DNA from: Pedobacter nanyangensis
GTDB taxonomy: Bacteria > Bacteroidota > Bacteroidia > Sphingobacteriales > Sphingobacteriaceae
Direction: 5' to 3'
DNA length: 64,000 nucleotides
Assembly (NCBI RefSeq): GCF_003313505.1
Contig: NZ_QMHO01000009.1
Span: 1 to 64,000, forward strand
In this document: piece after piece, positions 10,756-27,601 of the stretch
How the letters are laid out: the number at the start of each line of letters is the position of its first letter
Numbering within the stretch: the stretch's first letter is position 1
Position numbers and translations under genes: made by a program
Notes under the pieces: model-generated
Seen by the model: only the letters and a program-made list of their open reading frames with translations
What the model was told of the DNA's origin: nothing
The model's database searches: none

Positions 10756-10848
10756 CAATCATATTTTTACCCCCGTATCTTAAAAGCAGTGCAAAAGCCA
10801 CTCATTGTTTCCAGAATAACTTTTGCACTGAATACAAACTATCTATTG

Positions 10849-11469: not shown

Positions 11470-11480
11470 TGTTTTAAAAT

Positions 11481-12032
11481 TTATTTGTGATTATTACGAT
11501 GCGCTAATTGATTTGATAGATAATATCTCTCTTCAACAGCTTTTTTAGTAGCGTAGTCCCTGCCTGTTAAAATGACATAATCTGGTTTAACATTTAATCC
11601 TTTCCCTTCTTTAATATGAATGAATATTTTATCCAAATACATTTCCCGGTTGTTTACAGTCGTATAGACAACTGGCTTCTGCTGTTCTAATGCAAGAGAA
11701 AATTTAAGCTTCTTGAACGATACCAAATTCAATTCAAAAGAATTCATATCCTTTCTTTTAAAATCGATTCCGTATGCCAGTTTTTGCTGAATTTTAGTAA
11801 GCGGTAGTTTCTGTCCCTTTTCTTCGTACAAAATCCGGTACACCTCAACAGGATTCTTATCTGATATGTTTTTGTTTATTATATGAGCATCATATACATA
11901 AGTGTTATGGTTATCACTGTGCTGTATATAAAAAAGGCGACTGTCTGACCGCTCAGGAACTGGGTAATTTTCCTGAGCATAACCAATGTGGTAGACGATG
12001 GCCGAAAGTGTAAGTAGTATGATGAATTTCAT
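11481..12032 (-). CDS. DUF4833 domain protein, exported
   Basis: A 183-residue protein with a signal peptide (residues 1-19, ending GYAQ), so it acts in the periplasm or outer envelope. The body matches the DUF4833 pattern: LFYIQHSDNHNTYVYDA near the N terminus, a central LTKIQQKLAYGI, and a C-terminal strand-rich region ending in YVILTGRDY. The biochemical role of the family is not established. It sits between tolC and the coiled-coil gene in the RND operon (2-bp and 11-bp gaps). That placement suggests an envelope function coupled to efflux or lipid turnover, but this is inferred. Confidence 0.8.
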   Translation of the reverse strand: MKFIILLTLSAIVYHIGYAQENYPVPERSDSRLFYIQHSDNHNTYVYDAHIINKNISDKNPVEVYRILYEEKGQKLPLTKIQQKLAYGIDFKRKDMNSFELNLVSFKKLKFSLALEQQKPVVYTTVNNREMYLDKIFIHIKEGKGLNVKPDYVILTGRDYATKKAVEERYYLSNQLAHRNNHK

Positions 12033-12034
12033 TG

Positions 12035-13381
12035 CTATCTTCCTGTTACAAGTAAGTAATTCGTTATCGCTGTTTTGTACTGGCTTTTTGCTTCAATGAG
12101 TTTATCCTCGGTTTCTGCTCTCAGAGCCCGTGCTTCCAGCAAATCCGAAAGCTGGATTAAACCGTTTTTGTAGCTGTCCTGGTTTACTTTTAGGTTTTCA
12201 ATGGTTTGGGTCAAGGTTTCTTCAATCAAGTGTACTTTTTTATCGGCTTCCGTCAGGTCTGTCCACGCTTTTTCCATTTGTAGGTTTAGCAATCCCTTAT
12301 TGTCGTTCAGTGTGTTTTGAGCCATTTTTTCCTTAAACCTCAATTCGTTCAGCTTGTGCTTGCCGCCCCACCAGTCCGAAATAGGGATGGACAATGAAGC
12401 ATAAGCCATTCCATTAAAAATGCCCTTTTGGTTACTTTCAAGCTGGTTGAGGTAATAACCACTCGCACCTACGCCGAAGGTTGGCAAATAATCACCTCTT
12501 TTCATTTGTGTTTCCATCTTTGATGCCGTTACCGCTTTTTCCAAAAGCTGGTATTCGGCACGGTTGGGCAATACCTCGCTATTGGAAACAAAATAGGTCT
12601 GGGGAAAGGAAAGGTCATCGAGGTTATCATTAAGGATTATTTCCGGACTGTACTCCATTCCTATCGTTTGGCATAACTGCATCAGGGATAATTTCTTTCC
12701 GTTTTCCAACTGGGTTTTGTTGACCCGCAGTTCGCTTTGCTTAATACTTACTTTGAGCACATCATTTTTAATGATAACCCCGTTTTTGTAGGCCGTATTA
12801 GCCTGATTGTAGAGCGTGTCTAAAAATTTAATATAGTTATCCAGTGTTTTCTGTTTTTCCTGAATGGTTATGACCTGCCAGTATTGTTGCTCTGTTTTGA
12901 GCAGGACATCGTTCTCAGACAATTTTTGGAGTTTTTGCCTCACTTCAATATTCAGGTTGGTAAGTTTATTGGCAGTTTTGATTTTGCCGCCCGCATAAAC
13001 TGGCTGTAAAATATTGACATAACCCAATGCCATCTGGTTAAACAAACCGATGTTCACATCGGGCATATAGGCAAATTGCGTAGCGCTGCCAAGGTTGGCA
13101 GGGTTTCCGTCGTAAACGGGCAGATTGCCACCCTGCATTTTCATTTCCAGAAGCGGGTCAAGCGCCTGCATTCCCATTGCCGTGGCACTCACTTTCGGAA
13201 AGTAATTGGTGTATGCCTCTTTCTTCATTTCCTGAGCGGCACTTACTTCCAGTGCGCTGTTTTTTACCTTGCTGTTGTTCTGCAAAGCCAGCGATTTGCT
13301 TTGTTTTAGTGTGAGATATGTTTGGGCGTATCCGCTAACCGAAAAACCCAGTATAAATGCTGTTATGATTACCTTTTTCAT
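12035..13381 (-). CDS. TolC-family outer-membrane efflux channel
   Basis: A 448-residue outer-membrane channel of the TolC/OEP family. It has a signal peptide (1-19, GYAQ) and two OEP repeats of long alpha-hairpins with interspersed beta strands. The first repeat covers about 25-215 and the second about 240-440, with SYKNGLIQLSDLLEAR being typical of the second. Its length is normal for the family. It lies 2 bp after the patatin gene and completes the tripartite pump encoded by the RND permease and the adaptor upstream. Confidence 0.92.
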   Translation of the reverse strand: MKKVIITAFILGFSVSGYAQTYLTLKQSKSLALQNNSKVKNSALEVSAAQEMKKEAYTNYFPKVSATAMGMQALDPLLEMKMQGGNLPVYDGNPANLGSATQFAYMPDVNIGLFNQMALGYVNILQPVYAGGKIKTANKLTNLNIEVRQKLQKLSENDVLLKTEQQYWQVITIQEKQKTLDNYIKFLDTLYNQANTAYKNGVIIKNDVLKVSIKQSELRVNKTQLENGKKLSLMQLCQTIGMEYSPEIILNDNLDDLSFPQTYFVSNSEVLPNRAEYQLLEKAVTASKMETQMKRGDYLPTFGVGASGYYLNQLESNQKGIFNGMAYASLSIPISDWWGGKHKLNELRFKEKMAQNTLNDNKGLLNLQMEKAWTDLTEADKKVHLIEETLTQTIENLKVNQDSYKNGLIQLSDLLEARALRAETEDKLIEAKSQYKTAITNYLLVTGR

Positions 13382-13383
13382 TC

Positions 13384-14157
13384 TTACTTAATTTCTTTAA
13401 GTTTTAAAAACTCTTTTTCAAATCTTTGGGCATGGGCGTATCCCAATTGATATAATTCATCAATCTTTCTTCCATCAAACGTGCTGTAGCCATTTACTTC
13501 ATCGGGTTGTATGTACACATCGCAATCAGCTCTTCCATCTGCTGTAATACCGGATGTGGCAATGCGGATAATCCTGGTCACTATCCCTGTGTAACTGAAT
13601 TTTCCCTGATGTTTATTGAGCGGATTAACATTGATGCCGATGGTTTTATTACAGGTAGCCCTTATTTGCTGCACAGGGAAATTATTGAGCAAACCACCGT
13701 CGCACAGATAAGTATCTTCGCCATACAGCACCGGCTGAAATACCAAGGGGAAGCAGCAGGAAGCTTTAACCGCAAAAGACAAACTACCCTGACTAAAAAT
13801 CAGGGATTGCGCATTCGTGAGGTCGGTAACTGATACATAAAGTGGTATTTTCAAACCTTGAAAGCTATCGTGCGGAATATAGGTGCGGATAATTTTTTCA
13901 AAACTGTCCGTACTCAATCCTCCTCCTTTTAATATGCCCGAATAGTTGAAAAACTGTTCCTTTTTGGCAAAATAAAAAATTTCTTCCGGCGAATAACCTG
14001 CTGCTATAAACGCCCCGATTAATGCCCCGGCACTTGCCCCGGAAACGGCATCAGGTTCTATACCCAGCTCCCGCATATATTGTAATATGCCAAGATGGGC
14101 CACGCCCCTGAAACCGCCACCTGAAAGTGTGACGCCTATCTTATCGTTCAAAATCAT
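13384..14157 (-). CDS. Patatin-like phospholipase
   Basis: A 257-residue patatin domain acyl hydrolase. It shows the oxyanion-hole motif SGGGFRG (12-18), the nucleophile elbow GASAG with Ser42, and the catalytic DGG with Asp153 (YLCDGGLLNNFPV), so the Ser-Asp dyad is intact. There is no signal peptide, so it is probably cytoplasmic or membrane-associated. Its ATG overlaps the stop of the RND permease gene (ATGA), which implies translational coupling. Having a phospholipase inside an RND-TolC operon is unusual and suggests membrane lipid remodelling alongside efflux (inferred). Confidence 0.9.
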   Translation of the reverse strand: MILNDKIGVTLSGGGFRGVAHLGILQYMRELGIEPDAVSGASAGALIGAFIAAGYSPEEIFYFAKKEQFFNYSGILKGGGLSTDSFEKIIRTYIPHDSFQGLKIPLYVSVTDLTNAQSLIFSQGSLSFAVKASCCFPLVFQPVLYGEDTYLCDGGLLNNFPVQQIRATCNKTIGINVNPLNKHQGKFSYTGIVTRIIRIATSGITADGRADCDVYIQPDEVNGYSTFDGRKIDELYQLGYAHAQRFEKEFLKLKEIK

Positions 14158-17100
14158 ACTGCTGCAATTTTATTGTCTTCATTTTTATATGCCATCCAAT
14201 AAATCAATGGAAGCATCGTAAGGATAAAAACCATAGATATGAGCGTTCCGAAACAGATGACCGTTCCCATCGGTGCCCAGAGCGGGCTTTTACTGATAAT
14301 CATCGGAATAACGCCCATCGAAGCTGCCAGAGAAGTAAGCAATATCGGACGCATTCTACGCTTCCCTGCTTCTATACAGGCTTCCAAAACCGGCATATTG
14401 TGCTTGTGCCGCAGTTCTTCGATATAGTCGTACATAATAATACCATTTCTTACAATGATGCCAATCAAACTGACTACGCCCAATACAGAAGTCATACTAA
14501 ATTCCATATCCATAATCTTCAATCCGACTGCAGCACCCAAAAAACTAAATGTAGTTGATGCAAATACCAACGAGGCCAAACCCACTTTTTTGAAATGGAA
14601 TACCAAAATGAAAAAGATAATGGCGATGGAAATCATCAGCCCGCCTACGATTTTTGGCAACATTTCCGCTGTGTTTTCTTTTAATCCACCATAAGAAACC
14701 GTAATATTTTTGGCTTTTATTTGCTCTGAGAATTTATCAACGATAGTTTCAACTTTGGTCTGAACAGATTCAGGGCGATTACCTCGTTTCATATCAATGT
14801 ATACCGATAAGGTACGTACGCCGTTTCGGCGGACAATTTGCCCTTCCTGCCATCCTGTGGTTACTTTGGCAATCTGTCTGAGCGGAACGGCAGGCGTAAA
14901 CAAGCCCGAAATGTATTCGTTTTCCACGTCGCCTGCTTCAGCATCCTTATGTTCCCATTTCGATTTGAGCACTACAGGTATCTGGTAATCGTTTTCCCAT
15001 ATCGTAGTAATGGGTAAGCCTCCAAAACGTGAAGCTAGACCTATGCCTAAAACACCTTCACTGATGCCCAATCTATTGGCTTCTACGGGATTTAATGCCA
15101 CCTGAATATCGGGCAGGATTTCTTCATAATTGGTATAAACCCGTATCGGCTCGTCTAGTTTTTTCACTTCCGATTGGATTTTTTCGGCCGATTCCTTCAA
15201 ATCGGCGATATTATCGCCACTCAGGCGAACTTCTATATCCGAATCGACCCCTGCCTGGTAATCCAACTGTTTGAATTTCACAAAAGCATTGGGATAATGA
15301 TGTGCATATTTCGTTGCATATTCATCGAGGATTTCCACTGTTGCTTTGCTCGATTCGGTATTGACAATAAACTGGGCAAAATTTGAACCACCGATTTTCG
15401 GAGCATAAGTAGTCTGAAAACGGGGTGAACCTGTTCCCATAAAAGTGGTAATGGATTTGACACGCGGGTCTTTGTCAAGGATTTGCCCCATATCATTTGC
15501 CACTCTTTCGGTTTGTTCCAAAGCGCTTGCCTGTGGCAGGAAGATTTCTACTGCAAACTGGTTACGTTCGGCGACAGGCATTAATTTTAATGGCGTTTGC
15601 AGGAATAGAGCAATCCCTATAACTACTGATAATATACCAATGGCAAATGTGGTTTTGGGAAACTGAAACACCTTTCCCAAAATTTTATCGTATGACGACT
15701 GCACATAGTCAAGGAAAGATTTGTTCTTTTTTACATTTTCCGAATGCAGACCTTTGGTAATAATGATGTATTGCAGGTAAGGTACAAACAGAACGGCAAC
15801 GGCCAGCGAAACACCCAGCGTGATAAGTGTTGTCCAGGGGAAAGAACGTAAGAAGTCATAAAACATGCCCGTAAAAGTGACCAGAAACGGAAAGAAGGTA
15901 ATGCCGATAGCCAGCGTGGCCGAAAATATGGCTTTGAAATATTCCTGTGCGCTTTCTATGGCGGCATCCTTGCGTGGGATTCCCTCGTCTAATTTTTCAA
16001 GGTAACTGTCCACAATTACAATAGAATTATCCACGATCATACCCAGAACTACCACCAATGCTGCCAACGTAACTGTGTTCAGTTCTAGTCCGAAAGCGTA
16101 CATCAATCCCAACGATATAAAAATTGAAATGGGAATGGTGGAAGCGGCAACGCCGGCCACACGTATGGGTAGTAAAAGCATTACCACCAAAACTACCGCG
16201 GCAATGGCGATCGCCAACTCTTCCAAAAAGGTGTTGATTGAGGCATCTACTACCTGTGGCTGATCGGCAATGCGGAATATTTTCACATCGTCTGGTAAGT
16301 TCTTTTCAAAATCCTTCATTATCGCTTCCACCTCCTTTCCGTATTGTACAATATTATAGCCCTCCCGCATTTCGGTGGAAAGGATAAGACATTTTTTCCC
16401 GTTGCTGACAGTATAGTTCGTAGCTTCCGGATACTCACGGGCTACCTTTGCTACATCTTTCAGGCGGATATGGTTGCCCTGCGGGTCAGAATAAACGATT
16501 TGTTCTTCCAAATCGCGTTCGGAGGCAAAAGGACGGGTAATGTGAATGGGCACGACCATTTCGTTATTATCAATCTTGCCCGATGGTCCAATCATTCCTT
16601 TAGTTAGCAGCGTTTGATATAGGCTGTAAATGTTGATACCGTAGCTTGCTATTTTTTCCTTATCGATATAAATGCTTAACTGCTCGTTTTGTACACCGTA
16701 ACGGCGCAGATTTGATACTGATTCAACTGTGCGGAGTTTGTTTTCCAACACTTCTACATAGTCTTTCAGCTGGCGGTAGGTTTTGGTATCAGATTCCAAT
16801 GCAATCAAAAGTGCCGAAGTGTCTCCGAAATCGTCATTGGCTATCAAAGCCAGTACTCCCGATGGCAATTGCGCCTTAAAGGTTGACAATCCGTGTTTGA
16901 TTTTCGACCAGACTTCATCCTTGTTTTGCACTTCGTCGTTCAATTCTACAAACACATACACAATACCGTCACGCGACTGTGAATAGGTTTTGGATTTCTT
17001 TACTTCTTTGTAAGTAAACAGGAATTTTTCAAGCGGTTTGGTCAATTGCTCTTCCACCTCTGCCGAAGTAGCTCCCGGATAGACACCCACTACCACGCCC

Positions 17101-17252
17101 TGACGGATGGTAAATAAAGGGAACTCCTGTTTGGGCATCTTAAATAATGCAAAAACCCCGAAAATTACCAGTGTGGTAATCAGTAACAGCACAATTTTAT
17201 TATACTTCATAGCAAGTGCTATGAGTCCGGTATGTTCTTTCTTGTTTTCCAT
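14154..17252 (-). CDS. RND efflux permease (AcrB/HAE1-like)
   Basis: A 1032-residue inner-membrane proton-driven exporter of the RND superfamily. It has the usual plan: TM1 near residue 15-35, a large periplasmic loop, TM2-6 at about 335-500, TM7 near 540, a second periplasmic loop, and TM8-12 at about 850-1020. The TM4 proton-relay motif reads GMIVDNSIVIVDS, with one Asp followed by Asn rather than the Asp-Asp of AcrB. That variant is common in Bacteroidota pumps. It is 9 bp downstream of the adaptor gene and coupled to the patatin gene. Substrates cannot be told from sequence. Confidence 0.93.
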   Translation of the reverse strand: MENKKEHTGLIALAMKYNKIVLLLITTLVIFGVFALFKMPKQEFPLFTIRQGVVVGVYPGATSAEVEEQLTKPLEKFLFTYKEVKKSKTYSQSRDGIVYVFVELNDEVQNKDEVWSKIKHGLSTFKAQLPSGVLALIANDDFGDTSALLIALESDTKTYRQLKDYVEVLENKLRTVESVSNLRRYGVQNEQLSIYIDKEKIASYGINIYSLYQTLLTKGMIGPSGKIDNNEMVVPIHITRPFASERDLEEQIVYSDPQGNHIRLKDVAKVAREYPEATNYTVSNGKKCLILSTEMREGYNIVQYGKEVEAIMKDFEKNLPDDVKIFRIADQPQVVDASINTFLEELAIAIAAVVLVVMLLLPIRVAGVAASTIPISIFISLGLMYAFGLELNTVTLAALVVVLGMIVDNSIVIVDSYLEKLDEGIPRKDAAIESAQEYFKAIFSATLAIGITFFPFLVTFTGMFYDFLRSFPWTTLITLGVSLAVAVLFVPYLQYIIITKGLHSENVKKNKSFLDYVQSSYDKILGKVFQFPKTTFAIGILSVVIGIALFLQTPLKLMPVAERNQFAVEIFLPQASALEQTERVANDMGQILDKDPRVKSITTFMGTGSPRFQTTYAPKIGGSNFAQFIVNTESSKATVEILDEYATKYAHHYPNAFVKFKQLDYQAGVDSDIEVRLSGDNIADLKESAEKIQSEVKKLDEPIRVYTNYEEILPDIQVALNPVEANRLGISEGVLGIGLASRFGGLPITTIWENDYQIPVVLKSKWEHKDAEAGDVENEYISGLFTPAVPLRQIAKVTTGWQEGQIVRRNGVRTLSVYIDMKRGNRPESVQTKVETIVDKFSEQIKAKNITVSYGGLKENTAEMLPKIVGGLMISIAIIFFILVFHFKKVGLASLVFASTTFSFLGAAVGLKIMDMEFSMTSVLGVVSLIGIIVRNGIIMYDYIEELRHKHNMPVLEACIEAGKRRMRPILLTSLAASMGVIPMIISKSPLWAPMGTVICFGTLISMVFILTMLPLIYWMAYKNEDNKIAAV

Positions 17253-17261
17253 TTGTCGGGA

Positions 17262-18311
17262 TTATTTTTTTACAGTTACCAATGTTCCGTTGCTGATATT
17301 CTGATACCCAGCGGTGATCAGTTCGTCGCCTTCCTGCAAACCGCTTGTGATTTGTACACCGTTTTCTGCAAGACTTCCCAGCGTTACTTCTTTGTATACC
17401 GCCTTGTTCTGTCTGTCTTTCAGCCATACGAAGCGTTTGCCGGAATAGTCTACCATTACTGCTTTTATCGGAACAATGATATTCGCTTTATCGGAACTGC
17501 CTGAATTACCCAAATAGGTACGGCATACCATGCCGGGCAGAATTTTCCCTGTGGTATTGTTGATTTTTATCTTAATATCGTAGGTATGTGAAACTGGATT
17601 TGCGGCAACGCTTTTTTCAATAACCTGCCCTTCAAAACTTTCATCATTTAGCGCAGAGATTTTAACCTGGCATTTGGTTCCGGTATGGATAGCGGATATC
17701 TCGCCTTCGGGTATGGCGGCTTTAACTTTTACGCTTTTAACATCCATAATATTATAAACTGGTGTTCCGGGCATCACATTGGCTCCGGGTTCCAGATAAC
17801 GTCTGCCTACTACGCCCGATTGTGGCGAGTAGAGGTTACCGTCCTGCAAATTTTTACGGGCAATGGCTTCGTTTGCCTTTGCCTGTTCCACCTGTGTTTT
17901 TATCTCAATAAACTTGATTTCCGGTAAGCTCTTGCTTTCGTACATTGCCGACATTCTTTTGTAGGCATCTTCTGCTTGTTTCAGTGTGGCCAATGTCGAT
18001 TCGTGCGCATTTTTCAATGATGCTGTGTTTAACCGCCCTAAAAGCTGTCCTTTAGAAACTTTCTGCCCTTCGTTTGCATAAAGCTGTTCGATCATTCCAA
18101 CTCCCAAAAAGCTCACGTCTACCGCATTTTCACTTTCAACGGTTCCGATGTATTCCTGTTGGTATGCATTGTTGTCAGACTGAATTTGTTGTACACCTAC
18201 CAGGACGGTTTTGGCTTCGGTTTTTTCTTCTTTGGAAGAGCAGGAAAAAAGGATGAGCATGCAGGATAAAATGCCGACGTGCTTTGCCAGGGGAAACGCT
18301 GTTTTGTTCAT
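17262..18311 (-). CDS. RND periplasmic adaptor lipoprotein (HlyD/MFP family)
   Basis: A 349-residue membrane-fusion protein. The N terminus is a lipoprotein signal with lipobox LFSC (Cys24), so it is anchored to a membrane. A biotinyl-lipoyl-like half (GVGMIEQLYANEGQKVSKGQLLGRL, about 75-100) is followed by a helical hairpin (about 100-150), a second lipoyl half (LYSPQSGVVGRR) and the beta-barrel region. It is the first gene of the minus-strand efflux operon and is divergent from the AraC regulator at 18446. A TAACTTTG -7 box lies 30 bp upstream. Confidence 0.92.
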   Translation of the reverse strand: MNKTAFPLAKHVGILSCMLILFSCSSKEEKTEAKTVLVGVQQIQSDNNAYQQEYIGTVESENAVDVSFLGVGMIEQLYANEGQKVSKGQLLGRLNTASLKNAHESTLATLKQAEDAYKRMSAMYESKSLPEIKFIEIKTQVEQAKANEAIARKNLQDGNLYSPQSGVVGRRYLEPGANVMPGTPVYNIMDVKSVKVKAAIPEGEISAIHTGTKCQVKISALNDESFEGQVIEKSVAANPVSHTYDIKIKINNTTGKILPGMVCRTYLGNSGSSDKANIIVPIKAVMVDYSGKRFVWLKDRQNKAVYKEVTLGSLAENGVQITSGLQEGDELITAGYQNISNGTLVTVKK

Positions 18312-18340
18312 ATCTCTTTGTTATTTAATGTTTACTGCGT

Positions 18341-18348
18341 CAAAGTTA
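18341..18348 (-). promoter_or_regulatory. -7 box of efflux operon promoter
   Basis: On the minus strand, TAACTTTG matches the Bacteroidota -7 consensus TAnnTTTG, 30 bp from the adaptor ATG. The expected -33 position is only weakly matched. The overlap with the divergent AraC promoter region fits regulation by that protein. Confidence 0.55.
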
Positions 18349-18412
18349 TGGACGAGGAGTGCCCCGCGTAAAACCGATTATTCTTCGATAATGTTCAAAA
18401 GGTCGCTTTTTG

Positions 18413-18420
18413 TATATTTG
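18413..18420 (+). promoter_or_regulatory. -7 box of AraC regulator promoter
   Basis: TATATTTG exactly matches the Bacteroidota -7 consensus and lies 26 bp before the ATG at 18446. No strong -33 TTTG is seen at the optimal distance, which fits a promoter needing or lacking an activator. Confidence 0.5.
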
Positions 18421-18445
18421 TATTGATTATTAAGAGAAATTGAAA

Positions 18446-19339
18446 ATGAAAAAAGAAGATTTTGTCAAAATTTCCATAGCACACTTTGCCAGACAGCTAC
18501 ACGTAAATGTTATTGCGGAAACTAACGATTTTATCGTTTCCAAAAGCCCGAACACCTTTCGGGAGCATTCGTTTGATTTAGACCATCCGCATATTCTGGA
18601 CGGAATTGCTTTTGTGTTTTGTGTAAAAGGAAAGGCAAAGGTTAAAATAAACCTTACGGAACACGATGTGTATCAAAATACGATGCTTATTGCTGTCCCG
18701 AACAGTATTGTACAAATATTGGAACAGAGTGACGACCTGAAAATAGAGTTCCTGTTTTTTACGTTCGATTTTATTTCTAATATCAAGCTGTCTACCCAAT
18801 TGGGCTATATAGCTAAGGCGGTTGAAAAACAAACCTGCCTGTACCTGACCGATGAAACCTTCGGGGATTTGCTGGCCGTGCACAAACTTATTGTAAAGCA
18901 GTATCAAAAGCATATTGCTTACAGGGAAGATGTGATCAAAAATTTTCTGTATGCGTTAATCTACCAAATATTGCAATTGTACGCTACCAGTATAACCAGT
19001 AGCACCGCTAAAGGCCAGAATAGAAAAGAGGATATTCACATGAAGTTTATGGCCTTGCTTTTTGAACATTACAAAATCGAGCGCAGTGTTAAGTTCTATG
19101 CTGATAAGTTGTACCTGACACCGAAATATTTCGCCAAAGTTGTCAAAGATATAAGCGGCAAGCCCGTCCTTGAGTGGATAGACGAAATGGTTATTATGGC
19201 GGCAAAGGCATTGCTCAAAAGCTCGGATATGACTGTGGCGCAAATTTCATTTGAACTGGAATTTGCTAATTCTTCTTTCTTTGGGACCTATTTCAAGAGA
19301 AGAGTTGGAATCACGCCGTTGCAGTACAGAGAAAAGTAA
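18446..19339 (+). CDS. AraC-family transcriptional regulator
   Basis: A 297-residue regulator. The N-terminal part (about 1-180) is a cupin-like effector domain, with strands such as DGIAFVFCVKGKAKVKINLTEHDVY. The C-terminal part (about 195-295) is the two-HTH AraC DNA-binding domain ending in the signature FANSSFFGTYFKRRVGITPLQYR. The ATG at 18446 is preferred to a TTG two codons earlier. It is divergent from the efflux operon and upstream of the alcohol dehydrogenase gene, so it probably controls one or both. The ligand is unknown. Confidence 0.9.
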   Translation: MKKEDFVKISIAHFARQLHVNVIAETNDFIVSKSPNTFREHSFDLDHPHILDGIAFVFCVKGKAKVKINLTEHDVYQNTMLIAVPNSIVQILEQSDDLKIEFLFFTFDFISNIKLSTQLGYIAKAVEKQTCLYLTDETFGDLLAVHKLIVKQYQKHIAYREDVIKNFLYALIYQILQLYATSITSSTAKGQNRKEDIHMKFMALLFEHYKIERSVKFYADKLYLTPKYFAKVVKDISGKPVLEWIDEMVIMAAKALLKSSDMTVAQISFELEFANSSFFGTYFKRRVGITPLQYREK

Positions 19340-19594
19340 GTTATAACCGTATGATCGCCTACAACAGAATGAAAGCGAATTATTGAACGTTTATGGAGCT
19401 GTTTGGAACATTTAGAACACGCTGGATTTGGTACTTTTGAAGTAGCATCATCGAATGATAGACAACAGGGTTACGTTACCTTGAAAGTACAGGAATCGTT
19501 TTGATAATTTCGATAAATTAAGCAACACAAACAAATATACCGTCATTAATAAGTAATTACCCTGTAAACAATAATTACTATAATCAGGATAAAA

Positions 19595-20692
19595 ATGAAA
19601 GCATCAGTAGTAAAAAGCGTAGGCGGTGTCTTCCAAACAGAAGATGTTCAGATAGACCAACCGAAAGGTTATGAAGTATTGGTTAATATTAAAGCATCGG
19701 GACTATGTCATTCAGATCTGCATATCCGTGATGCCAATTACGGATTTCCGTTTCCTGCAGTATTGGGACACGAGCCGGCTGGAATTGTAGAAGCCGTGGG
19801 CGAACTTGTATCCGAATTTGAAGTGGGCGACCACGTGGTTGGCTGCCTGATACAATATTGTGGGGCCTGTGAAGAATGCTTGTCTGGTCAGACTTATTTT
19901 TGTAAACATCCTGAATTTACACTAAGGAAAGCAGGAGAATCGTCTCGACTAAAAAACAAAGAGAATAATCTTCTAAATCAAGGGTTTGGATTGGGTGGGT
20001 TTGCTGAAAAAATACTTACTCATCAAAACCAGTTGGCAAAAGTACCAAAGGAAATGCCTTTTGACAAGGCTTGTCTTCTAGGTTGTGGAACCGTTACTGG
20101 TGCAGGAGCCATCATTAATACCGCTAAAACTAAAGCTGGCGATAGTGTTGCAATAATAGGAGTTGGCGGCGTTGGATTAAACGCCATATCCGGAGCTAAA
20201 ATTGCGGGAGCGACTATTATTATTGCCATCGATATTGATGATGAAAAATTAGAATTTTCTAAAAAGTTCGGAGCCACGCATATCATTAATTCAAAGAACG
20301 AAGATGTTGTTGCCCGTGTAAAACAAATAAGCGAAGGAGGAGTTAATTCTGCTTTTGAAGTGATCGGATTACAATCTACATCAGAACAAGCTGTGCAAAT
20401 GATAAAACGTGGCGGTGGAGCTTACTTGATTGGGATGTCTAAGCCAAATACTTTAATTTCTGTTAAGTCTTTTGAGGAAATGGTTGCTGATGGAAAGAAA
20501 TTGATTGGGGTGATGATGGGTTCCAGCAACTTAAAAAGAGATATCCCGATGTATGCCAAACTATACCTTGAAGGAAGAATGAACCTGGACGATTTAGTCT
20601 ATAAAACCATTAATATAGATCAGGTTGAAGAAGCCTATCAGGAGCTGGCTTCCGGCAAAATTGTTGGGCGTACGGTCATCACTTCTTTTTAA
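19595..20692 (+). CDS. Zinc-dependent alcohol dehydrogenase (MDR family)
   Basis: A 365-residue medium-chain NAD(P)-dependent alcohol dehydrogenase. Catalytic zinc ligands are visible in GLCHSD (Cys38) and GHE (His59, Glu60). The structural zinc site has the four-cysteine set Cys89, Cys92, Cys95 and Cys103. The Rossmann motif is GVGGVG (about 187-192). Class III-like features include the LLGCGTVTGAGA segment. It is followed by two short-chain dehydrogenase genes in the same direction, which suggests an alcohol/carbonyl oxidation cassette. A TACTTTTG sequence at 19432-19439 could be the -7 box, which would leave a leader of about 150 nt. The substrate is not evident. Confidence 0.9.
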   Translation: MKASVVKSVGGVFQTEDVQIDQPKGYEVLVNIKASGLCHSDLHIRDANYGFPFPAVLGHEPAGIVEAVGELVSEFEVGDHVVGCLIQYCGACEECLSGQTYFCKHPEFTLRKAGESSRLKNKENNLLNQGFGLGGFAEKILTHQNQLAKVPKEMPFDKACLLGCGTVTGAGAIINTAKTKAGDSVAIIGVGGVGLNAISGAKIAGATIIIAIDIDDEKLEFSKKFGATHIINSKNEDVVARVKQISEGGVNSAFEVIGLQSTSEQAVQMIKRGGGAYLIGMSKPNTLISVKSFEEMVADGKKLIGVMMGSSNLKRDIPMYAKLYLEGRMNLDDLVYKTINIDQVEEAYQELASGKIVGRTVITSF

Positions 20693-20838
20693 TAAGTAGT
20701 AGCTGTTAGCAATTAACTTTTATCAATTAACCTTAAAATCAATGTGTTGAAGTTTGGAAATGTATGATTAAATAGTTTCAAGTACTTTGACTATACAAAC
20801 ACATCAGAATTATTTTTTAAAATCATTAAATATAAATT

Positions 20839-21590
20839 ATGAACAGATTAGAGGGAAAAGTCGCCATCATTACCGGTGGTGCAAGTGGAATGGGAGAAGC
20901 ACACGTACGCCTTTTTATTGAAGAGGGTGCGAAGGTTGTTATCACAGATATTGTGGAGGAAGCAGGAATGAATTGGCCAAGGAAGTTGGCGAAAACGCTA
21001 TTTTTTTGAAACACGATGTAGCTGACCCTAAAAGTTGGGCAGAAGTTGTAAAAAGTGTGATTAATGAATTTGGAACCATAAATATTTTAGTTAATAACGC
21101 TGGTTATGCCGGTCCAATAGTCCTTTTGGCAGATATGAAGGATGAGGATTATCTTGGCGTTGTATCTGTTGACCAGCACGGTACATTTTATGGTATGAAA
21201 GCGGTTATCCCGGAAATGATGAGAAATGGCGGTGGTTCAATCATTAACATCGGCTCGGTTGCCGGTTTGAGGTTTGAGGATGGCACACCTAATGCTGCAT
21301 ATAGTACAGCGAAATTTGCGATAAGAGGCCTTACGCAAGCAGCAGCTTATCAATATGGGGACAAAAACATTCGGGTAAACGCAGTTCATCCGGGAGGTGT
21401 AACTACACCATTGTTGTTAGGTCATTTTAGTAAGGCAGAGCTTGACGAACTGGCATCAGGACAACCACTGCAAAATCGTCTTGGTAAACCGCGGGAAATT
21501 TCGCAGGTCGTCTTGTTTTTAGCTTCGGATGACTCTTCTTTTGTGACAGGTGCCGATTACGTTGTCGATGGTGGAAAATCAATTCACTAA
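20839..21590 (+). pseudogene. Short-chain dehydrogenase, frameshifted
   Basis: From the ATG at 20839 the frame encodes a classical SDR N terminus ([15 protein letters not shown], glycine motif). It then runs out of frame near 20967 and stops at about 21009. The rest continues in another frame from about 20967 to 21590, with NNAG, the catalytic YSTAKFA (Tyr and Lys) and the closing VVDGG. Restoring one A in GGAATG at about 20965-20970 would rejoin the frames and give the usual NELAKEVGE sequence. The full-length product would be about 250 residues. It is either a recent pseudogene or a sequencing error; everything else looks intact. Confidence 0.85.
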
Positions 21591-21653
21591 GACCTGTATA
21601 AGTTAATACATTTCAATCTATAAATATTCATTAACAAATTTAACAAATAAAAA

Positions 21654-22451
21654 ATGTTAGAAATTATGAAAGACAAAGCAATCATTATTACAGGAGCTGC
21701 AATGGGATTAGGATATGCAACAGCCAAAGAATTAGCATCAAGAGGAGCAAATTTAACTTTGGTAGATTTCAACAGTGACGTATTATTGGATACTGTTAAA
21801 AAAGAACTATCAGCACTTTATCCATCTTCAACATTCATAAGCGTAAAGGCAGATGTTTCCAAGGAATTAGAGGTGAAGAATTATGTAGACCAAACCGTAA
21901 AAACCTTTGGAAAAATAGATGGTCTTTACAACAATGCCGGTATTGCGGGCGGACCATCCGAAATGACAGAATATGATATGGATTTATTCAAGAAGGTAAT
22001 AGAAATAAATTTGATGGGCGTTTACTATGGGATGCGGTACACTATCCCCGAAATGAAGAAAAGAAACTTTGGCCGTATTGTAAATGTTGCATCTACTGCA
22101 GGTATTCGTGGGGTCTTCAATATGGCACCTTACGTTTCAAGCAAGCACGCTGTTTCCGGGATAACGAAAAGTGCCGGAATTGAATACGGGCAATTTAATA
22201 TACTTACCAATGCAATTGCCCCGGGAGCGATATTAACACCTATGCTTGCGGATGTGCTCAAGAAAATAAATCCCGTTGACCCTAAGGCGGCGGAGAAAGC
22301 ACAGTCCGCAAACAATCCAACAAAAAGATTAGGGTTGCCGGAGGAGGTAGCAAAATTTGTTGCGTTTTTAATAGCTGAAGAAAACTCATATATCAATGGG
22401 CAAACGATTGCCATCGATGGGGGCGAATCACAAATATTCGGCACGTTTTAA
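21654..22451 (+). CDS. Short-chain dehydrogenase/reductase
   Basis: A 265-residue classical SDR (the start may instead be the ATG at 21666, giving 261 residues). It has the cofactor motif TGAAMGLG near the N terminus, NNAG (about 98-101), the catalytic Ser in VASTAG and YVSSKHA carrying Tyr and Lys, and a C-terminal IAIDGG. The Asp after beta-2 (LVDFN) suggests NAD rather than NADP. It lies 63 bp after the frameshifted SDR. A partial copy of an SDR C-terminal tail directly follows its stop, a sign of past duplication and deletion. The substrate is unknown. Confidence 0.88.
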   Translation: MLEIMKDKAIIITGAAMGLGYATAKELASRGANLTLVDFNSDVLLDTVKKELSALYPSSTFISVKADVSKELEVKNYVDQTVKTFGKIDGLYNNAGIAGGPSEMTEYDMDLFKKVIEINLMGVYYGMRYTIPEMKKRNFGRIVNVASTAGIRGVFNMAPYVSSKHAVSGITKSAGIEYGQFNILTNAIAPGAILTPMLADVLKKINPVDPKAAEKAQSANNPTKRLGLPEEVAKFVAFLIAEENSYINGQTIAIDGGESQIFGTF

Positions 22452-22452
22452 T

Positions 22453-22500
22453 ATTGATGGTCAAACAATTGGCATTGACGGCGGGATGAGTATTCAATAG
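22453..22500 (+). pseudogene. SDR C-terminal tail remnant
   Basis: Sixteen codons just after the preceding SDR stop read IDGQTIGIDGGMSIQ and a TAG, the typical end of an SDR gene. The frame differs from the preceding gene and nothing upstream belongs to it. It is the tail of a deleted or recombined SDR copy. Confidence 0.7.
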
Positions 22501-22586
22501 AAAAATTTTTTTTAAGTATAATTTACTTTCCAAACACACGCAAGGTTTTTAACAATAAGAATTAAAATTTAAAGATAAAATAAACA

Positions 22587-23282
22587 ATGGAAAAAGTAAT
22601 CCAATTTTTGGTAAGTGATCAAGTAAACGCTTATAAAGTAGTTGAAAAATTAAAGGATTTAGACACTAAATCAGATATTTCTACAGATAAAATATTTGTA
22701 TTGGTAAAAGATGAAAATGGAAAGGTAAGCTTAAAAGACAGCAATGGGGATATTGCAGACAATACATTGTTTGGTCTTTTTGCCGGTGGGTTAATTGGAT
22801 TTTTTGGCGGTCCGGTTGGTTTTCTTTTAGGCAGTTCATTTGGTGCCTTGTTCGGTTCCCTGGCAGATTTGGGTATGGCCGAAAGACAAAATGAATATTT
22901 AGATAAAGTTGCTGAAAAAATTCCTGCTGGTAAATCTTTGGTAGTGGCACACGTTTTTGAAGATTGGACAACACCAATTGATTCTTCTTTAACTGAAATC
23001 GCCGAAATTACCCGGATCGATGTTTCTGAAGAAGTAAACAAAGCTATTGAAACGGAAATTGATAGCTTTAAAGCAGACATTGATAAAATTGAAAGTGATA
23101 TTAAAAATACAATTAAGGAGCAAAGGGAAACCTTACAAGCAAAACTTACCGAGTTGAAAACAAAAAGACAAAGCAAGGAAGCTGAGCTGAAAGCACGTGT
23201 GGAATTGCAAAAAAACGCCTACAAAAATTGGTTAGCAAAAGCCAAGGACAAAATAAAATCGCTTTCAAAAAAAGAGGACTAG
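22587..23282 (+). CDS. DUF1269-type protein with glycine zipper and coiled-coil tail
   Basis: A 231-residue protein. Residues 1-60 form a ferredoxin-like half. Residues 63-96 are a Gly-rich hydrophobic hairpin (LFAGGLIGFFGGPVGFLLG) that could insert in a membrane. Residues 110-140 carry the VAHVFEDWTTPID strand shared with the 9181-9636 protein. Residues 155-231 are a strongly charged coiled coil. The gene is flanked by SDR tail remnants on both sides, and its last codons overlap the frame of the downstream remnant, so it probably entered the locus by recombination inside SDR genes. The role is unknown; stress association is inferred from the neighbouring universal stress gene. Confidence 0.75.
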   Translation: MEKVIQFLVSDQVNAYKVVEKLKDLDTKSDISTDKIFVLVKDENGKVSLKDSNGDIADNTLFGLFAGGLIGFFGGPVGFLLGSSFGALFGSLADLGMAERQNEYLDKVAEKIPAGKSLVVAHVFEDWTTPIDSSLTEIAEITRIDVSEEVNKAIETEIDSFKADIDKIESDIKNTIKEQRETLQAKLTELKTKRQSKEAELKARVELQKNAYKNWLAKAKDKIKSLSKKED

Positions 23283-23509
23283 TCCAGAAAAATATCCGTG
23301 CTAATTTCGTGCATCCGGGATTCATCAAAACGCCTATGACGGCAGCCGCAAAAAATGAAGGTTGCGGAAGCGCAACTCAGAATATTCCTTTAGGTGGATT
23401 AGCAGAAACATTCGAAGTAAACAATTTGGTCATATTTCTTGCTTCAGACGAATCATCTTATATGACAGGTACCGAACAGTTGATTGATGGCGGGATGAAT
23501 ATCCAATAA
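23276..23509 (+). pseudogene. SDR C-terminal fragment
   Basis: About 77 codons encode the last third of an SDR: NIRANFVHPGFIKTPM, then LVIFLASDESSYMTG and LIDGGMNIQ before the stop. The cofactor-binding and catalytic parts are missing. The fragment begins inside the last codons of the DUF1269-type gene in a different frame, which marks a recombination joint. It is not expected to make an active enzyme. Confidence 0.8.
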
Positions 23510-23700
23510 ATGAAAAATATAGCTTGTAAAGCACGTAAAATAAATACAGATAATAAGTTTTTTAAATTTAAACTGATGCCTTATACTGCTCTTTAACTCT
23601 GAAGAGCAGGTCATAAACGCTAACGCTGCAGTTCAACAATTACCTAAAAAAACCGGGGCATGCTGTGCCTTTCCCCATCGTTCACTTAAACAATATTTAA

Positions 23701-24522
23701 ATGAGATCAATTATCGTTGCCACGAATTTTTCGCCGTTGGCAGAAAATGCTGTTAATTATGCAGCTGCCATTGCAGAAGAACGTCAATTGGAGCTTGTGC
23801 TTTTCAACTCCTTTACCCTTCCGTTGCATGCTTCCAATTCGCTTCTCCCAGCTTCGTCCATCGAGGAGATTATTGACCAAAATCTGAAAAGGTTACAGAA
23901 GAGGGCTCACGATCTTTCCGAAAAACATGGGATAACTGTTTTTGCCGAACAAATATTTTACGGTATGCAAGACGAGCTGCCCAGACTTATCGCAAAATAT
24001 AATACAGCTCTTTTGGTATTTGGGATGTCAGAAAAATCGGTAGAACAATCATATATGGGAAATACGACTACCGCTGCAATAAAGAACCTTGATTTTCCGA
24101 TCATGGCGGTTCCTGCAGGGTTAAGCTATTTTGGGATAAAGAAGGTTTTGTTCGCATGTGACGACCTGTCATTGGTTCCAAAGACTGTTTTTGACAGAAT
24201 CAATGAAGTCGCCCAGGGCATGGGGGCCCAAGTGGAAGTTTTTCATGTCGAAAAGCATCTTGAAAAGATGAAGGAGATGGACGAGAAATCTTTTTCAGAA
24301 ATTACGCGTAAAGGCGAGCATCCCGGTATTGTTTACCTATATAAAGGTGTGCTGTCGAATAATGTCATCTCTGAAATTGCGAAGGAAGTAGCCGTCTTTG
24401 GTGCAGATATTTTAATTATGTCCCCAAAAAAATACGGGTTCTGGGAGTCTATTGTTCATAGGAGTAAGACACGACTGATGGCTGCAGGGCTTCAGGTACC
24501 GCTACTTTCGATACCTATTTAA
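23701..24522 (+). CDS. Universal stress protein, tandem UspA domains
   Basis: A 273-residue protein with two UspA-like domains (about 1-140 and 146-273). The first starts with MRSIIVATNFSPLAENAVNYA, and the second with IKKVLFACDDLSLVP. The ATP-binding GxxGxxxxxx(S/T) motif is degenerate in both halves (GMSEKSVEQSYMGNTT in the first), so nucleotide binding is uncertain. Tandem Usp proteins are common in Bacteroidota and respond to stress or starvation. It is the last complete cargo gene before the conserved island end. A small hairpin (23586-23609) lies upstream. Confidence 0.88.
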   Translation: MRSIIVATNFSPLAENAVNYAAAIAEERQLELVLFNSFTLPLHASNSLLPASSIEEIIDQNLKRLQKRAHDLSEKHGITVFAEQIFYGMQDELPRLIAKYNTALLVFGMSEKSVEQSYMGNTTTAAIKNLDFPIMAVPAGLSYFGIKKVLFACDDLSLVPKTVFDRINEVAQGMGAQVEVFHVEKHLEKMKEMDEKSFSEITRKGEHPGIVYLYKGVLSNNVISEIAKEVAVFGADILIMSPKKYGFWESIVHRSKTRLMAAGLQVPLLSIPI

Positions 24523-24678
24523 TTTACCAGGTTCATTTTAGATATATTTAGGAATAAGCATCCCTTTCTCTGTTAACTAATCAAGCCGATGATTGGAAGG
24601 TTTTATGGAGTTATCTAAACTCAAACGAATAGCTATTTAATTTTCAAATAATTATTTGTTATTTATTTAATCATATGG

Positions 24679-24972
24679 TTGAGTGACATCTCATTACCAT
24701 ATTATTACAGCCACCTCAACGAAAAGGGACGCTGGGCAACCCTACTATTTCTCGACTACCTTGACACCTTAGATATTGCCGATACTGAAATGATCCTACA
24801 TGAACCTTATATGGAAAAACTGAGCAGTACTATTGCAGCTATTCTAAACAGGAATGCCGATGACAAGCAATTGGCGGAAGAAAGTGCTAGAAAGGTAGTT
24901 GCTGAATGGCATAAAGTTGTTATAGCCAATCGTGCAAAATATCTACTGGATGGACTAGGTGGCGATGGTTAA
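24679..24972 (+). pseudogene. 5'-truncated copy of small island-end gene
   Basis: The 97 codons match the C-terminal three quarters of the 128-residue protein at 3739-4125 (LHEPYMEKL, AEWHK, KYLLDGL). Similarity begins at DISLP; the first 30 or so residues are missing, and the only in-frame start is a TTG at 24679. The ATG at 24675 leads to a stop after three codons. It is probably a remnant left when cargo DNA was joined to the conserved recombinase end, though expression from TTG cannot be excluded. Confidence 0.7.
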
Positions 24973-24984
24973 TGGAATTTCCCT

Positions 24985-25069
24985 ACGCTCATTTTCGGCC
25001 TGCGGAACGCCAACGCTCTTGCCCGCACCAGTTCCCGCTTTTTGCATCTACGGTGGGAAATTCGCTTGG
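24985..25069. repeat. 85-bp conserved non-coding island element, copy 2
   Basis: This is a near-identical copy of 4139-4223, at the same place after the small gene and before the cargo slot. Conservation is as high as in the recombinase genes even though no frame is kept, which suggests function as DNA or RNA. Confidence 0.7.
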
Positions 25070-25212
25070 GGACTTGGGGCTTTTGCAATTTTGGGAGTAA
25101 CATTGTTTCGATAACAACTTAAAAATTTACAGCTACTGAACATGAAGGAAGTTTTCTAGGAGGTTTTTGATTAATCTCCAATTATTTATATTTACCAATA
25201 AAAGCTTTCAAA

Positions 25213-25887
25213 ATGAATAAGGAATTAACGTTAGATAGAGGGACAATGATTACCGTTGCTTTCCAGAGAGAAAGAATATTATTGTTTTGTGATGGCCGTA
25301 TAACAGATTTTGAAACACACGCAATAAAATTTGATAATGTTACCAAACTGTATGAGATTACTTCAATGGTAGCTATTGCATGCTCAGGTTTCAAACTACA
25401 TGATTTAGAAAAGAGAATTCAACAGCTCGCCAGACAACATAATCATTGGTACATAGAAGATGTAATCTTAGATGCTAGACAGGCAGTTGTAGAACTATGG
25501 AATTTTAAAGTTATGGTACATGGAGCTGCCAACTTAAAAGAAGCGGCAATATTTATTATCGTTGCAGGTGTTAATAAAGAAGGAGATTGTGGTATTTTTT
25601 CGATACACAAACAAGAAGACCACAGTTTTAGAGTAGATCAGGTATCGATGTTGTCTGAACTGTCACTTCATACTGTCTGTTATGTAGATAAGGCAAGGGA
25701 AATAGTGGATAGAAACTATCGTGAACTACAGAATGTAAACACGGGAGAGCCAACTGATCAGCAGCTATACGAAATTTTTAGGATGTCAATGGAGGAAGTA
25801 AACCGCATTGACGACACTATCGGTGGAGAAATTTTCAGTTTAAAGATTGACAAACAGGGTGTATCGGCATTATATCATCCTAAATAA
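25213..25887 (+). CDS. Proteasome/HslV-like Ntn hydrolase
   Basis: A 224-residue protein that resembles a 20S beta or HslV-type N-terminal nucleophile hydrolase. A short leader ends in Gly10-Thr11. If Thr11 becomes residue 1 after processing, Asp27 falls at position 17 and Lys45 near the catalytic Lys33 position (TKLYEI, two residues shifted), matching the Thr1/Asp17/Lys33 triad. CDGRIT resembles HslV GDGQAT. The later ACSG turn and the closing IDKQGV strand also fit. No ATPase partner (HslU, Mpa) is near. It occupies the slot used by the OLD nuclease in island 1, so it may be defence or stress cargo. The family call is by motif reading. Confidence 0.7.
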   Translation: MNKELTLDRGTMITVAFQRERILLFCDGRITDFETHAIKFDNVTKLYEITSMVAIACSGFKLHDLEKRIQQLARQHNHWYIEDVILDARQAVVELWNFKVMVHGAANLKEAAIFIIVAGVNKEGDCGIFSIHKQEDHSFRVDQVSMLSELSLHTVCYVDKAREIVDRNYRELQNVNTGEPTDQQLYEIFRMSMEEVNRIDDTIGGEIFSLKIDKQGVSALYHPK

Positions 25888-25974
25888 CATCTAATATCAA
25901 AGCATTCAAATGAGATGTGACTTGGATAGATCTTTTAAGCTTCAGGAAGCGTTAATAATAAGAAAGCGGCAACA

Positions 25975-25993
25975 ATCCGAAGATTACTGCCGC
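25975..25993. repeat. Conserved short hairpin at right edge of cargo slot, copy 2
   Basis: GCGGCA pairs with TGCCGC downstream of the recombinase stop. It matches 6571-6600 in island 1 and marks where homology between the two islands resumes after the cargo slot. Confidence 0.5.
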
Positions 25994-26061
25994 CCATCTA
26001 AATTAACGCTCTCAAGTTAAAGGTACGATATAAGTTATCGAATTCCAAAAGTTTGAAAGAT

Positions 26062-27282
26062 TTATGCAAATTGGTCGGCTAACCTGACCTTGAGGTTTGC
26101 CATATCCTCGCTGAGTTTCATATCCAATATCTTTGCATAGTGCTGTGTAGTCCTGATATTGGTATGCCCGAGCATTTTTGATACACTTTCAATCGGAACA
26201 CCATTCAATAGTGTTACAGTAGTTGCAAAGGTATGGCGGGCGATATGTGAGGTCAGTTTCTTTTCGATACCGCACAGCTCGGCTATTTCTTTTAAATATT
26301 CGTTCATCTTTTGGTTGCTTGGTACGGGAAACACAGTTCCAATATTGCCACATATGGGATGACCTTCGTATTTATTGATCAGATCCACTGCGTTTTGAAG
26401 TAAGGGGATGGATGCCCTCACGTTGGTCTTCTGACGGTTCTTGATGATCCAAAGCTCTCCATCGATACCCTTTTGTATGTCGGTTATCTTTAGCTTCTGC
26501 ACATCGGCATAGGCTAGCCCAGTGAAGCAGCAGAAAAGGAAAACATCCCTGATAACCTCCAACCTCGCAGAGATGAACCGCTTCTGTAGTATGATCTGGA
26601 TTTCCTCCTGCGAAAGAAAATTTCTGTCTACAGTTTTTGTGCGCCCCTTGTAGAAAGTTATCGGATTGCTTTCCGCAGTTCCGTTTTCGCAGCAGATATT
26701 GATGATCTTGCCAAGGTTCTTGATCATTTTTACGGTATAGTTGTTTGCGCATGATCTAGACCTTAGGTAATAATCGAAATTATTGAAAAAAGCGACATCG
26801 ACCTTTCCAACTTCTATATCGCTAGTGTTATACTGTAGGAGAATAAAGGTTTCCAAGTGTTTTTTGAGCACTTTGTATCTGTTGAGCGTTCCCCTTACGT
26901 AATCCTTTCCGACCAAGACTTCCATTCTTTCATTATGCTCGGCTACAGCCTGTAGGAGCGTTGCAGAAATCGTTTCCCTGCCCATCATCATATCCCTTAT
27001 GGATTGCGCAGTTATCTCATTGCCTGACTGTACCACCTTTAGGTACGCATCATAGACTTTATTGTGCAACTGGTCTAGGCAGGTGTTGAACAACCTATAT
27101 TTTTCTTTTGTGCCGATTGCTCTCCCTGATTTGGAATGCCAACGATCTGGCTCACATGATCTTCCCGTGGCGATTTCCGCCCGTTTGCCGTTTACCGTAA
27201 TGCGAAGGTAAATTGGGACTTCGCCCCCTGAATAGTTCTTTTGCCTTTTCATGAAGAAAAGTAGGCTAAAATTAGTTTTCAT
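26062..27282 (-). CDS. Tyrosine recombinase (integrase) of island 2
   Basis: A 406-residue recombinase, about 96 percent identical by eye to the island 1 copy (roughly 16 substitutions, spread evenly). All catalytic landmarks are present: the arginine-box region CFTGLAYADV, the hairpin Lys, HIARHTFAT, GHTNIRTTQHY and the nucleophile Tyr. The gene lies 247 bp from tRNA-Lys and is transcribed away from it. It should catalyse integration at, and with accessory factors excision from, the tRNA 3' end. No excisionase gene is recognisable nearby. Confidence 0.93.
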   Translation of the reverse strand: MKTNFSLLFFMKRQKNYSGGEVPIYLRITVNGKRAEIATGRSCEPDRWHSKSGRAIGTKEKYRLFNTCLDQLHNKVYDAYLKVVQSGNEITAQSIRDMMMGRETISATLLQAVAEHNERMEVLVGKDYVRGTLNRYKVLKKHLETFILLQYNTSDIEVGKVDVAFFNNFDYYLRSRSCANNYTVKMIKNLGKIINICCENGTAESNPITFYKGRTKTVDRNFLSQEEIQIILQKRFISARLEVIRDVFLFCCFTGLAYADVQKLKITDIQKGIDGELWIIKNRQKTNVRASIPLLQNAVDLINKYEGHPICGNIGTVFPVPSNQKMNEYLKEIAELCGIEKKLTSHIARHTFATTVTLLNGVPIESVSKMLGHTNIRTTQHYAKILDMKLSEDMANLKVRLADQFA

Positions 27283-27303
27283 AATCTAACGATTAAAGGT
27301 TAA

Positions 27304-27311
27304 CAAATTTA
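27304..27311 (-). promoter_or_regulatory. Recombinase promoter -7 box, copy 2
   Basis: TAAATTTG on the minus strand matches the TAnnTTTG consensus and is 22 bp from the ATG, as in the island 1 copy at 7908-7915. Confidence 0.55.
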
Positions 27312-27378
27312 GCATTGGCAACTAAAGGACACAAGATGTTCAGTCTGTAACAACCTGTACACTAAATGGATACAGCTT

Positions 27379-27419
27379 ATTCGGTGAGTCGTACAGACTT
27401 TCAGGATGACTCACCGAAT
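27379..27419. repeat. Island-end stem-loop, copy 2
   Basis: ATTCGGTGAGTC pairs with its complement across a 17-nt loop. The stem sequence equals that at 7983-8023 while the loop differs, which supports a structural or binding role. Confidence 0.6.
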
Positions 27420-27472
27420 GACGAACTTTTTTTATGGGAATTCGTGTAAGTTTTGGTAAAGCCCTAAAAGCA

Positions 27473-27505
27473 AAAACCCTGCTAATCGTGCGATTGCAGG
27501 GTTTT
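27473..27505 (-). terminator. Terminator of tRNA-Lys (island-borne hairpin)
   Basis: A strong hairpin (AAAACCCTGC with its complement plus an inner stem) starts 24 bp beyond the tRNA 3' end and is followed by a T run in the tRNA reading direction. The same hairpin occurs at 8077-8109, so it travels with the island end. The tRNA transcript therefore appears to end in island DNA. Confidence 0.8.
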
Positions 27506-27528
27506 ATACGTTTTGTTAGTCATTTCTG

Positions 27529-27543
27529 TGATTCCGCTGGGAT
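27529..27543. other. att site within tRNA-Lys 3' end
   Basis: These are the 15 terminal bases of the tRNA gene, repeated with one mismatch at 8133-8147. Similarity between the two island ends stops exactly at 27543/8147. This is the likely recombination core or part of it. Confidence 0.78.
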
Positions 27544-27601
27544 TCGAACCCAGGACCACTACATTAAAAGTGTAATGCTCTACCAGCTGAGCTACGGAAT
27601 C
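27529..27601 (-). tRNA. tRNA-Lys (anticodon TTT)
   Basis: The 73-nt sequence folds as a cloverleaf: 7-bp acceptor stem (GATTCCG/CGGAATC), D arm with AGCTGGTA, anticodon loop CTTTTAA giving TTT, variable loop TGGTC, and T arm CTGGG-TTCGAAT-CCCAG. The discriminator base is A and CCA is not encoded. It is the intact copy restored by island integration. A well-matched promoter lies upstream. Confidence 0.97.

Follow-up and report, generated by a model that had tools for sequence, protein, structure and literature searches.

A very divergent proteasome-like protein in the cargo slot of a tRNA-Lys integrative element of Pedobacter nanyangensis

To our knowledge, most relatives of the proteasome outside the 20S particle, HslV and connectase have no known function. 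One small gene of Pedobacter nanyangensis was predicted from its DNA to encode a lone protein of the proteasome/HslV-like Ntn hydrolase type, carried in an exchangeable slot of a genomic island and perhaps serving in defence or proteolysis. The gene lies in a window of 64,000 nucleotides, by which we mean the whole stretch of DNA analyzed here. Is its product, P0001, a member of that family, is it likely to be an active enzyme, and what might it do where it is found?

25213-25887, plus strand: gene of P0001, 224 aa, proteasome-like (open reading frame, profile statistics, codon score)
25166-25193, plus strand: promoter-like site of Bacteroidota type (TTTG..TATATTT) upstream of the P0001 gene (consensus match only)

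The reading frame and its translation are as predicted, and 25213-25887 is a real coding gene, since a stop-free run of 225 codons has a chance probability of about 7e-7 at the composition found here, the codon score is 0.18 (compared with 0.13 for the adjacent integrase gene and -0.04 to -0.26 for the other frames of P0001), and the antisense frame contains many stops. The gene stands alone, flanked on the left by a conserved, mostly non-coding segment and on the right by a convergent tyrosine integrase gene. Within this immediate neighborhood, no gene for an AAA+ unfoldase partner adjoins it, again as predicted.

Homology to the proteasome-like family

Single-sequence searches of Pfam, NCBIfam, PHROGs, PADLOC and the PDB gave no significant match to P0001, and the sole hint among curated models was the NCBIfam archaeal beta model, which aligned in register at E = 0.13. 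Close homologues were not found in 99 relatives, 395 genomes of the phylum and 400 of the family (about 800-900 same-phylum genomes), nor in GTDB contigs, IMG/VR, phages and plasmids. Better marginal matches from same-phylum genomes turned out to be spurious once read. We also searched for a DNA pattern coding for Thr-x15-Asp-Gly-Arg-x-Thr-x13-Lys-x13-Gly, for which the matches in GTDB were chance frames only. A phage protein without a Pfam match (L023:10457-10912), found by the DNA pattern alone, has a proteasome-like Thr-Asp-Lys-Gly N-terminus.

The family members used for comparison came from several sources: Bacteroidota (HslV and Anbu-like proteins), the phylum of a Methanomicrobiales MAG (alpha and beta subunits) and Bacillota (the divergent protein L116). 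A mixed profile of archaeal alpha and beta subunits, HslV, Anbu and the group-II homologues of Bacillota and phages, from which P0001 was left out, matched P0001 nearly over its full length and in register, with 26.0 bits and E = 3.2e-10 (rank 1 of 5,001). As controls, the best of 5,000 shuffles reached 9.8 bits (2.9e-5), and the best unrelated ORF among 637 reached E = 2.5e-4. Smith-Waterman comparison with L116 (BLOSUM50) gave a full-length alignment with z of about 5.7-6.0, a score reached by 0 of 2,000 shuffles, and for archaeal alpha subunits z was up to 6.5. L116 had been chosen after inspection, so the mixed profile of all classes was tested too. Pfam places L116 and the related proteins L131 and L135 in PF00227, above the cut-off. 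When a profile of alignment A7 (P0001 and six relatives) was compared with the PDB, its 60 best matches were all proteasome chains, the best at E = 1.2e-6.

Could the resemblance in motifs be due to chance, P0001 not being an Ntn hydrolase at all? The lack of a significant single-sequence match in Pfam, NCBIfam or the PDB speaks for this, but it is already disfavored by the independent family profile, which P0001 matches at E = 3e-10 in nearly full-length register and with calibrated controls, and we give it hardly any credence. Judged by sequence, homology of P0001 to the proteasome-like Ntn family is established, and P0001 is a very divergent member. The original assignment is supported by the profile statistics together with the catalytic residues in register and the predicted topology, both described below.

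The proposed kinship with HslV in particular found no support. The HslV and Anbu profiles ranked P0001 at 806 and 999 of 5,001, respectively, neither above shuffles, and hhalign, run with P0001 alone, gave no significant match to HslV or Anbu. The archaeal alpha profile placed it first of 5,001. The FC profile alone ranked it 1 of 2,001, 2 of about 10,000 and 2 of 5,001 in three runs, and is thus by itself suggestive only. Nearest to P0001 in sequence are the group-II homologues, known from scattered Bacillota, phages and some Bacteroidota, together with the archaeal alpha and beta subunits.

Proteins of the group-II “Firmicute cluster” (FC1-type: L116/L126, L127, L128, L131, L135 and L205) align with P0001 over the full length and share with it Thr/Ser-Asp-Lys-Gly in register, a VAG strand motif and TxGG[EP]I near the C-terminus, at only about 17-22% identity; like P0001 they are encoded by lone genes, sometimes on phages. 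P0001 differs from them in a ten-residue N-terminal extension ending in Gly, in an S2-S3 loop that is two residues longer, and in its location on a Bacteroidota integrative element. The FC1 membership of the L116-kind relatives is our own reading and not taken from published alignments. The published criterion for the FC1 cluster is a P of 1e-10 (Fuchs, Alva and Lupas 2021; PMC8665760), and the pairwise match between P0001 and L116, the latter standing in for published FC1 sequences, is far weaker than this. On present sequence comparisons, P0001 is best called an outlier near group II.

Archaeal 20S alpha and beta subunits have the predicted core topology, RGT(T), Asp17, Lys33, SG47 and VAG in common with P0001, and the alpha subunits have significant pairwise similarity to it; P0001, in contrast, has neither a partner subunit nor an adjacent unfoldase and does not keep Ser129 and Ser169. 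HslV is likewise a small single subunit of the fold type predicted for P0001, with a Thr nucleophile, but has DGQxT, works with HslU, shows no specific similarity to P0001 and is absent from the host by PF00227. Anbu belongs to the same proteasome-like family, but starts directly at Thr, has a longer C-terminal helix and also lacks specific similarity.

Proteasomes had been held to be rare in Bacteroidota, whereas 109 of the 148 sampled Bacteroidota genomes contain a PF00227 protein, judged mostly to be HslV. HslV-type proteins are common in the sampled Bacteroidota and missing from the sampled members of the host’s genus, and one genome of the host’s family (G193) has an Anbu-type protein instead of HslV. 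The host has no match to PF00227 over threshold and, besides that of P0001, no PF00227 gene.

Catalytic residues, putative propeptide and predicted fold

The positions on which an assessment of activity depends are as follows.

25213-25242, plus strand: putative propeptide MNKELTLDRG, codons 1-10 (relatives in the alignment begin at the nucleophile; cleavage predicted)
25243-25245, plus strand: codon of Thr11, predicted N-terminal nucleophile, equivalent to Thr1 (Thr or Ser in all relatives that reach the site)
25291-25293, plus strand: codon of Asp27, equivalent to Asp17 (invariant in alignments)
25345-25347, plus strand: codon of Lys45, equivalent to Lys33 after a two-residue insertion (invariant in alignments)
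25387-25389, plus strand: codon of Gly59, equivalent to the oxyanion Gly47 (alignments, mixed profile)
25816-25833, plus strand: T-I-G-G-E-I motif, codons 202-207, common to group-II homologues (TVGGEI/TVGGPI)

The residues named in the original prediction are in place. Gly10 and Thr11 form the expected pair, and Asp27 lies exactly at Thr+16, as an Asp equal to 17 should. Three further features, Gly59, the T-I-G-G-E-I motif and Arg29, which corresponds to Arg19, were not part of that prediction. The Lys expected near 33 is Lys45, at Thr+34, two residues late because the preceding S2-S3 loop is two residues longer; in L116 the equivalent Lys is exactly at 33. Conservation of Thr11 among homologues had been set beforehand as a check, and the group-II relatives have Thr or Ser at this site, straight after Met. 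In P0001 no in-frame start codon directly precedes Thr11, so that Thr11 could become N-terminal only via a cut after Gly10. Propeptides are reported for most beta and HslV subunits and for no other homologue (PMC8665760). Equivalents of Ser129-Gly130 and Ser169 are missing from P0001, with Ile203 replacing Ser169. The RGT motif is also present, uncleaved, in inactive archaeal alpha subunits, and because these have RGT-D-K in register with P0001, the triad residues are no proof of activity. Proteolysis by P0001 is something we infer.

These observations bear on the main rival to an active enzyme, according to which P0001 is a catalytically dead, alpha-like scaffold or regulator that keeps the fold, leaves its N-terminus unprocessed and binds a partner or other subunits. 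In pairwise comparison P0001 is most similar to the alpha subunits of archaea (z up to 6.5), a similarity that includes the uncleaved RGT, and the missing Ser129 and Ser169 equivalents would also fit. However, the alpha H0 extension (YDRxIT-FSPDG-QVEYA) is absent from P0001, which has only ten residues before Thr11; the group-II relatives begin at Thr or Ser right after Met; and Asp27, Lys45 and Gly59 are all intact. We consider a dead scaffold unlikely.

The reading that we prefer is that of an active threonine hydrolase. P0001 would be made with a ten-residue propeptide, fold into a four-layer sandwich and undergo self-cleavage at the Gly10-Thr11 bond, perhaps when it oligomerises. Thr11, with Asp27 and Lys45, would then cut peptides, an unfolded protein or one particular protein, with no dedicated AAA+ unfoldase.

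Structure prediction had been proposed as a check on the Ntn fold. A single-sequence AF2 model (pLDDT 44) has the element order EE..HH-EEE-HH-EE, which is that of the beta subunit except for strands S3-S4; Foldseek and VIA comparisons of this model were uninformative. A second model, from four sequences (P0001 and three distant relatives; pLDDT 34), has the order S1-S4, H1, H2, S5-S7, H3, H4, S9-S10, as in the beta subunit. All 50 Foldseek matches listed for it are proteasome subunits (prob 0.94-1.0, best E = 3e-4), and VIA gave Z of at most 4.0, with residue 10/11 paired with residue 1/2 of several beta chains; the structural match of the second model is partly circular, because the relatives are inside its alignment. 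The element order is thus the one expected, at low confidence (pLDDT 34-44), and the predicted structure is consistent with, but not decisive for, a proteasome-like S1-S11 sandwich with H1-H4.

The predicted topology also bears on whether P0001 could be a connectase-like ligase or transamidase, a monomer in which the Thr11 acyl-enzyme joins peptides instead of hydrolyzing them. Connectase is a monomeric family member without an unfoldase, and the P0001 gene stands alone as well; but connectase lacks H1/H2 and carries a two-helix insertion at S3/S4 (PMC8665760), whereas P0001 is predicted to have both H1 and H2 and no S3/S4 insertion. We rate the chances of a ligase as very low.

The cargo slot, related loci and a possible role in conflict

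The window contains two tandem integrative elements in tRNA-Lys, referred to as islands A and B, with closely similar integrases and different slot cargo.

8148-27543: island B, 19-kb, carrier of P0001, with att copies at its ends
8131-8147: second att copy, TGTGATCCCGCTGGGAT, at the left end of island B
27527-27543: att core, TGTGATTCCGCTGGGAT, at the 3' end of tRNA-Lys
27528-27601, minus strand: tRNA-Lys, the insertion site
24937-25069: conserved segment, left edge of the cargo slot, 87% identical to 4090-4223
25956-27543, minus strand: right edge of the slot and integrase unit, 90% identical to 6562-8147
26062-27282, minus strand: tyrosine integrase of island B (PHROG integrase, 5e-39)
6666-7886, minus strand: integrase of tandem island A, protein 96% identical to that of island B
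4422-6485, minus strand: OLD/GajA-type AAA+TOPRIM nuclease, slot cargo of island A (PADLOC Old, 3.7e-48; AAA_15, OLD-like_TOPRIM)

Comparison of the two islands confirms that the gene occupies an exchangeable slot. Between the conserved pieces, island A carries the OLD/GajA-type (OLD/Gabija-type) nuclease and island B carries P0001, and a copy of the 3' end of the tRNA closes each of the segments 6562-8147 and 25956-27543. The slot is empty in some related integrase-linked elements, where it is a gap of 143-220 bp in seven and of 309 bp in an eighth, with no ORF. In others the cargo is an AbiEii-type toxin and its DUF6922 partner, an ORF6N protein, a group that includes a weak RES-domain match and an ATP-grasp protein, or, on our own reading, an apparent HAD phosphatase with an acetyltransferase. 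Given these mixed cargoes, this is an accessory slot with some, but not only, conflict genes.

The distribution of L116-like group-II relatives is sporadic, covering Bacillota genomes and viral contigs, and besides the host only one of the 148 sampled Bacteroidota genomes has one (L205). Two homologues, L135 (3992-4645) and L130, lie beside apparent phage tail genes, and a relative on a viral contig, L133, lies beside phage head genes. In L131 (3001-4771) the homologue, which lies in a viral contig's early region, adjoins a DUF4917 gene, and this neighbor is the PADLOC candidate defence gene PDC-S21. Elsewhere, homologues are found in housekeeping or phage-tail contexts. Our survey of neighbors in other genomes yielded no constant partner gene of group-II relatives across the loci covered, in agreement with the published survey of new groups, in which there was no informative genomic context (PMC8665760). 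A 263-aa proteasome-like frame in another genome (L072, G214:C19:28700-30600) has an apparent signal peptide before GTT and is possibly a secreted member; 296 genomes contained no convincing relative of it.

The viral neighborhoods raise the alternative that P0001 is a decaying passenger of phage origin, the remnant of a prophage moron without present function. Relatives on viral contigs by tail or head genes (L133, L135) or by a candidate defence gene (L131), and the lack of close homologues of P0001, speak for it. The intact frame with coding-type codon usage and a promoter-like site, the intact motif residues, and the position in the cargo slot of an integrative element without other phage genes all argue against decay, which we regard as quite unlikely.

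P0001 has full-length homology to the family and catalytic residues in register, and is encoded by a lone gene in the accessory slot of a tRNA-Lys element. We think it probable that P0001 acts as a threonine hydrolase that processes itself and needs no unfoldase, its gene being accessory cargo. As cargo of a single gene it would be of benefit to the element or the host, and its most likely use, judging from context, would be in conflict, be it with phages or with other mobile elements. The equivalent slot of island A holds a nuclease of phage-defence type, and a defence role for P0001 is plausible. P0001 matches no known defence model in PADLOC, and the literature searched held no Ntn or proteasome homologue in phage defence; the slot-based case for conflict has few cargoes behind it, and some of these (ORF6N; HAD with acetyltransferase) are unrelated to defence. 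A specific form of defence, in which P0001 is a stand-alone zymogen, kept inactive with its ten-residue propeptide, whose Gly10-Thr11 cut is triggered by assembly or infection and which then destroys a specific phage or host protein, as a threonine-protease single-gene defence, seems to us unlikely.

The proteasome-like family is known to be diverse, with 22 new subfamilies described (PMC8665760). P0001 is an outlier near group II, and what appears to be new is that it joins a putative propeptide to a genomic slot that is informative. Because this group-II-like protein has such a propeptide and its slot holds cargo of known type in sister islands, the questions of protease, scaffold, ligase and defence become testable with one small gene. 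Were a catalytic defence role to be shown, interest in it would be high.

Some minor features adjoin the slots. The conserved segment (24966-25066 and the matching part of 4090-4223) adjoins the integrase in many elements of the genus; it has TTTCCC...GGGAAA ends, is also present in L173, L174, L176, L178, L180, L182, L184, L185, L188, L189, L191 and L193, and is possibly a transfer origin or regulatory element. A 97-aa ORF at 24679-24972 shares only its last codons (R[AS]KYLLDGL) with island A and likely marks a recombination boundary. Between the nuclease gene of slot A and the conserved segment, there is a perfect 26-bp palindrome at 4351-4376.
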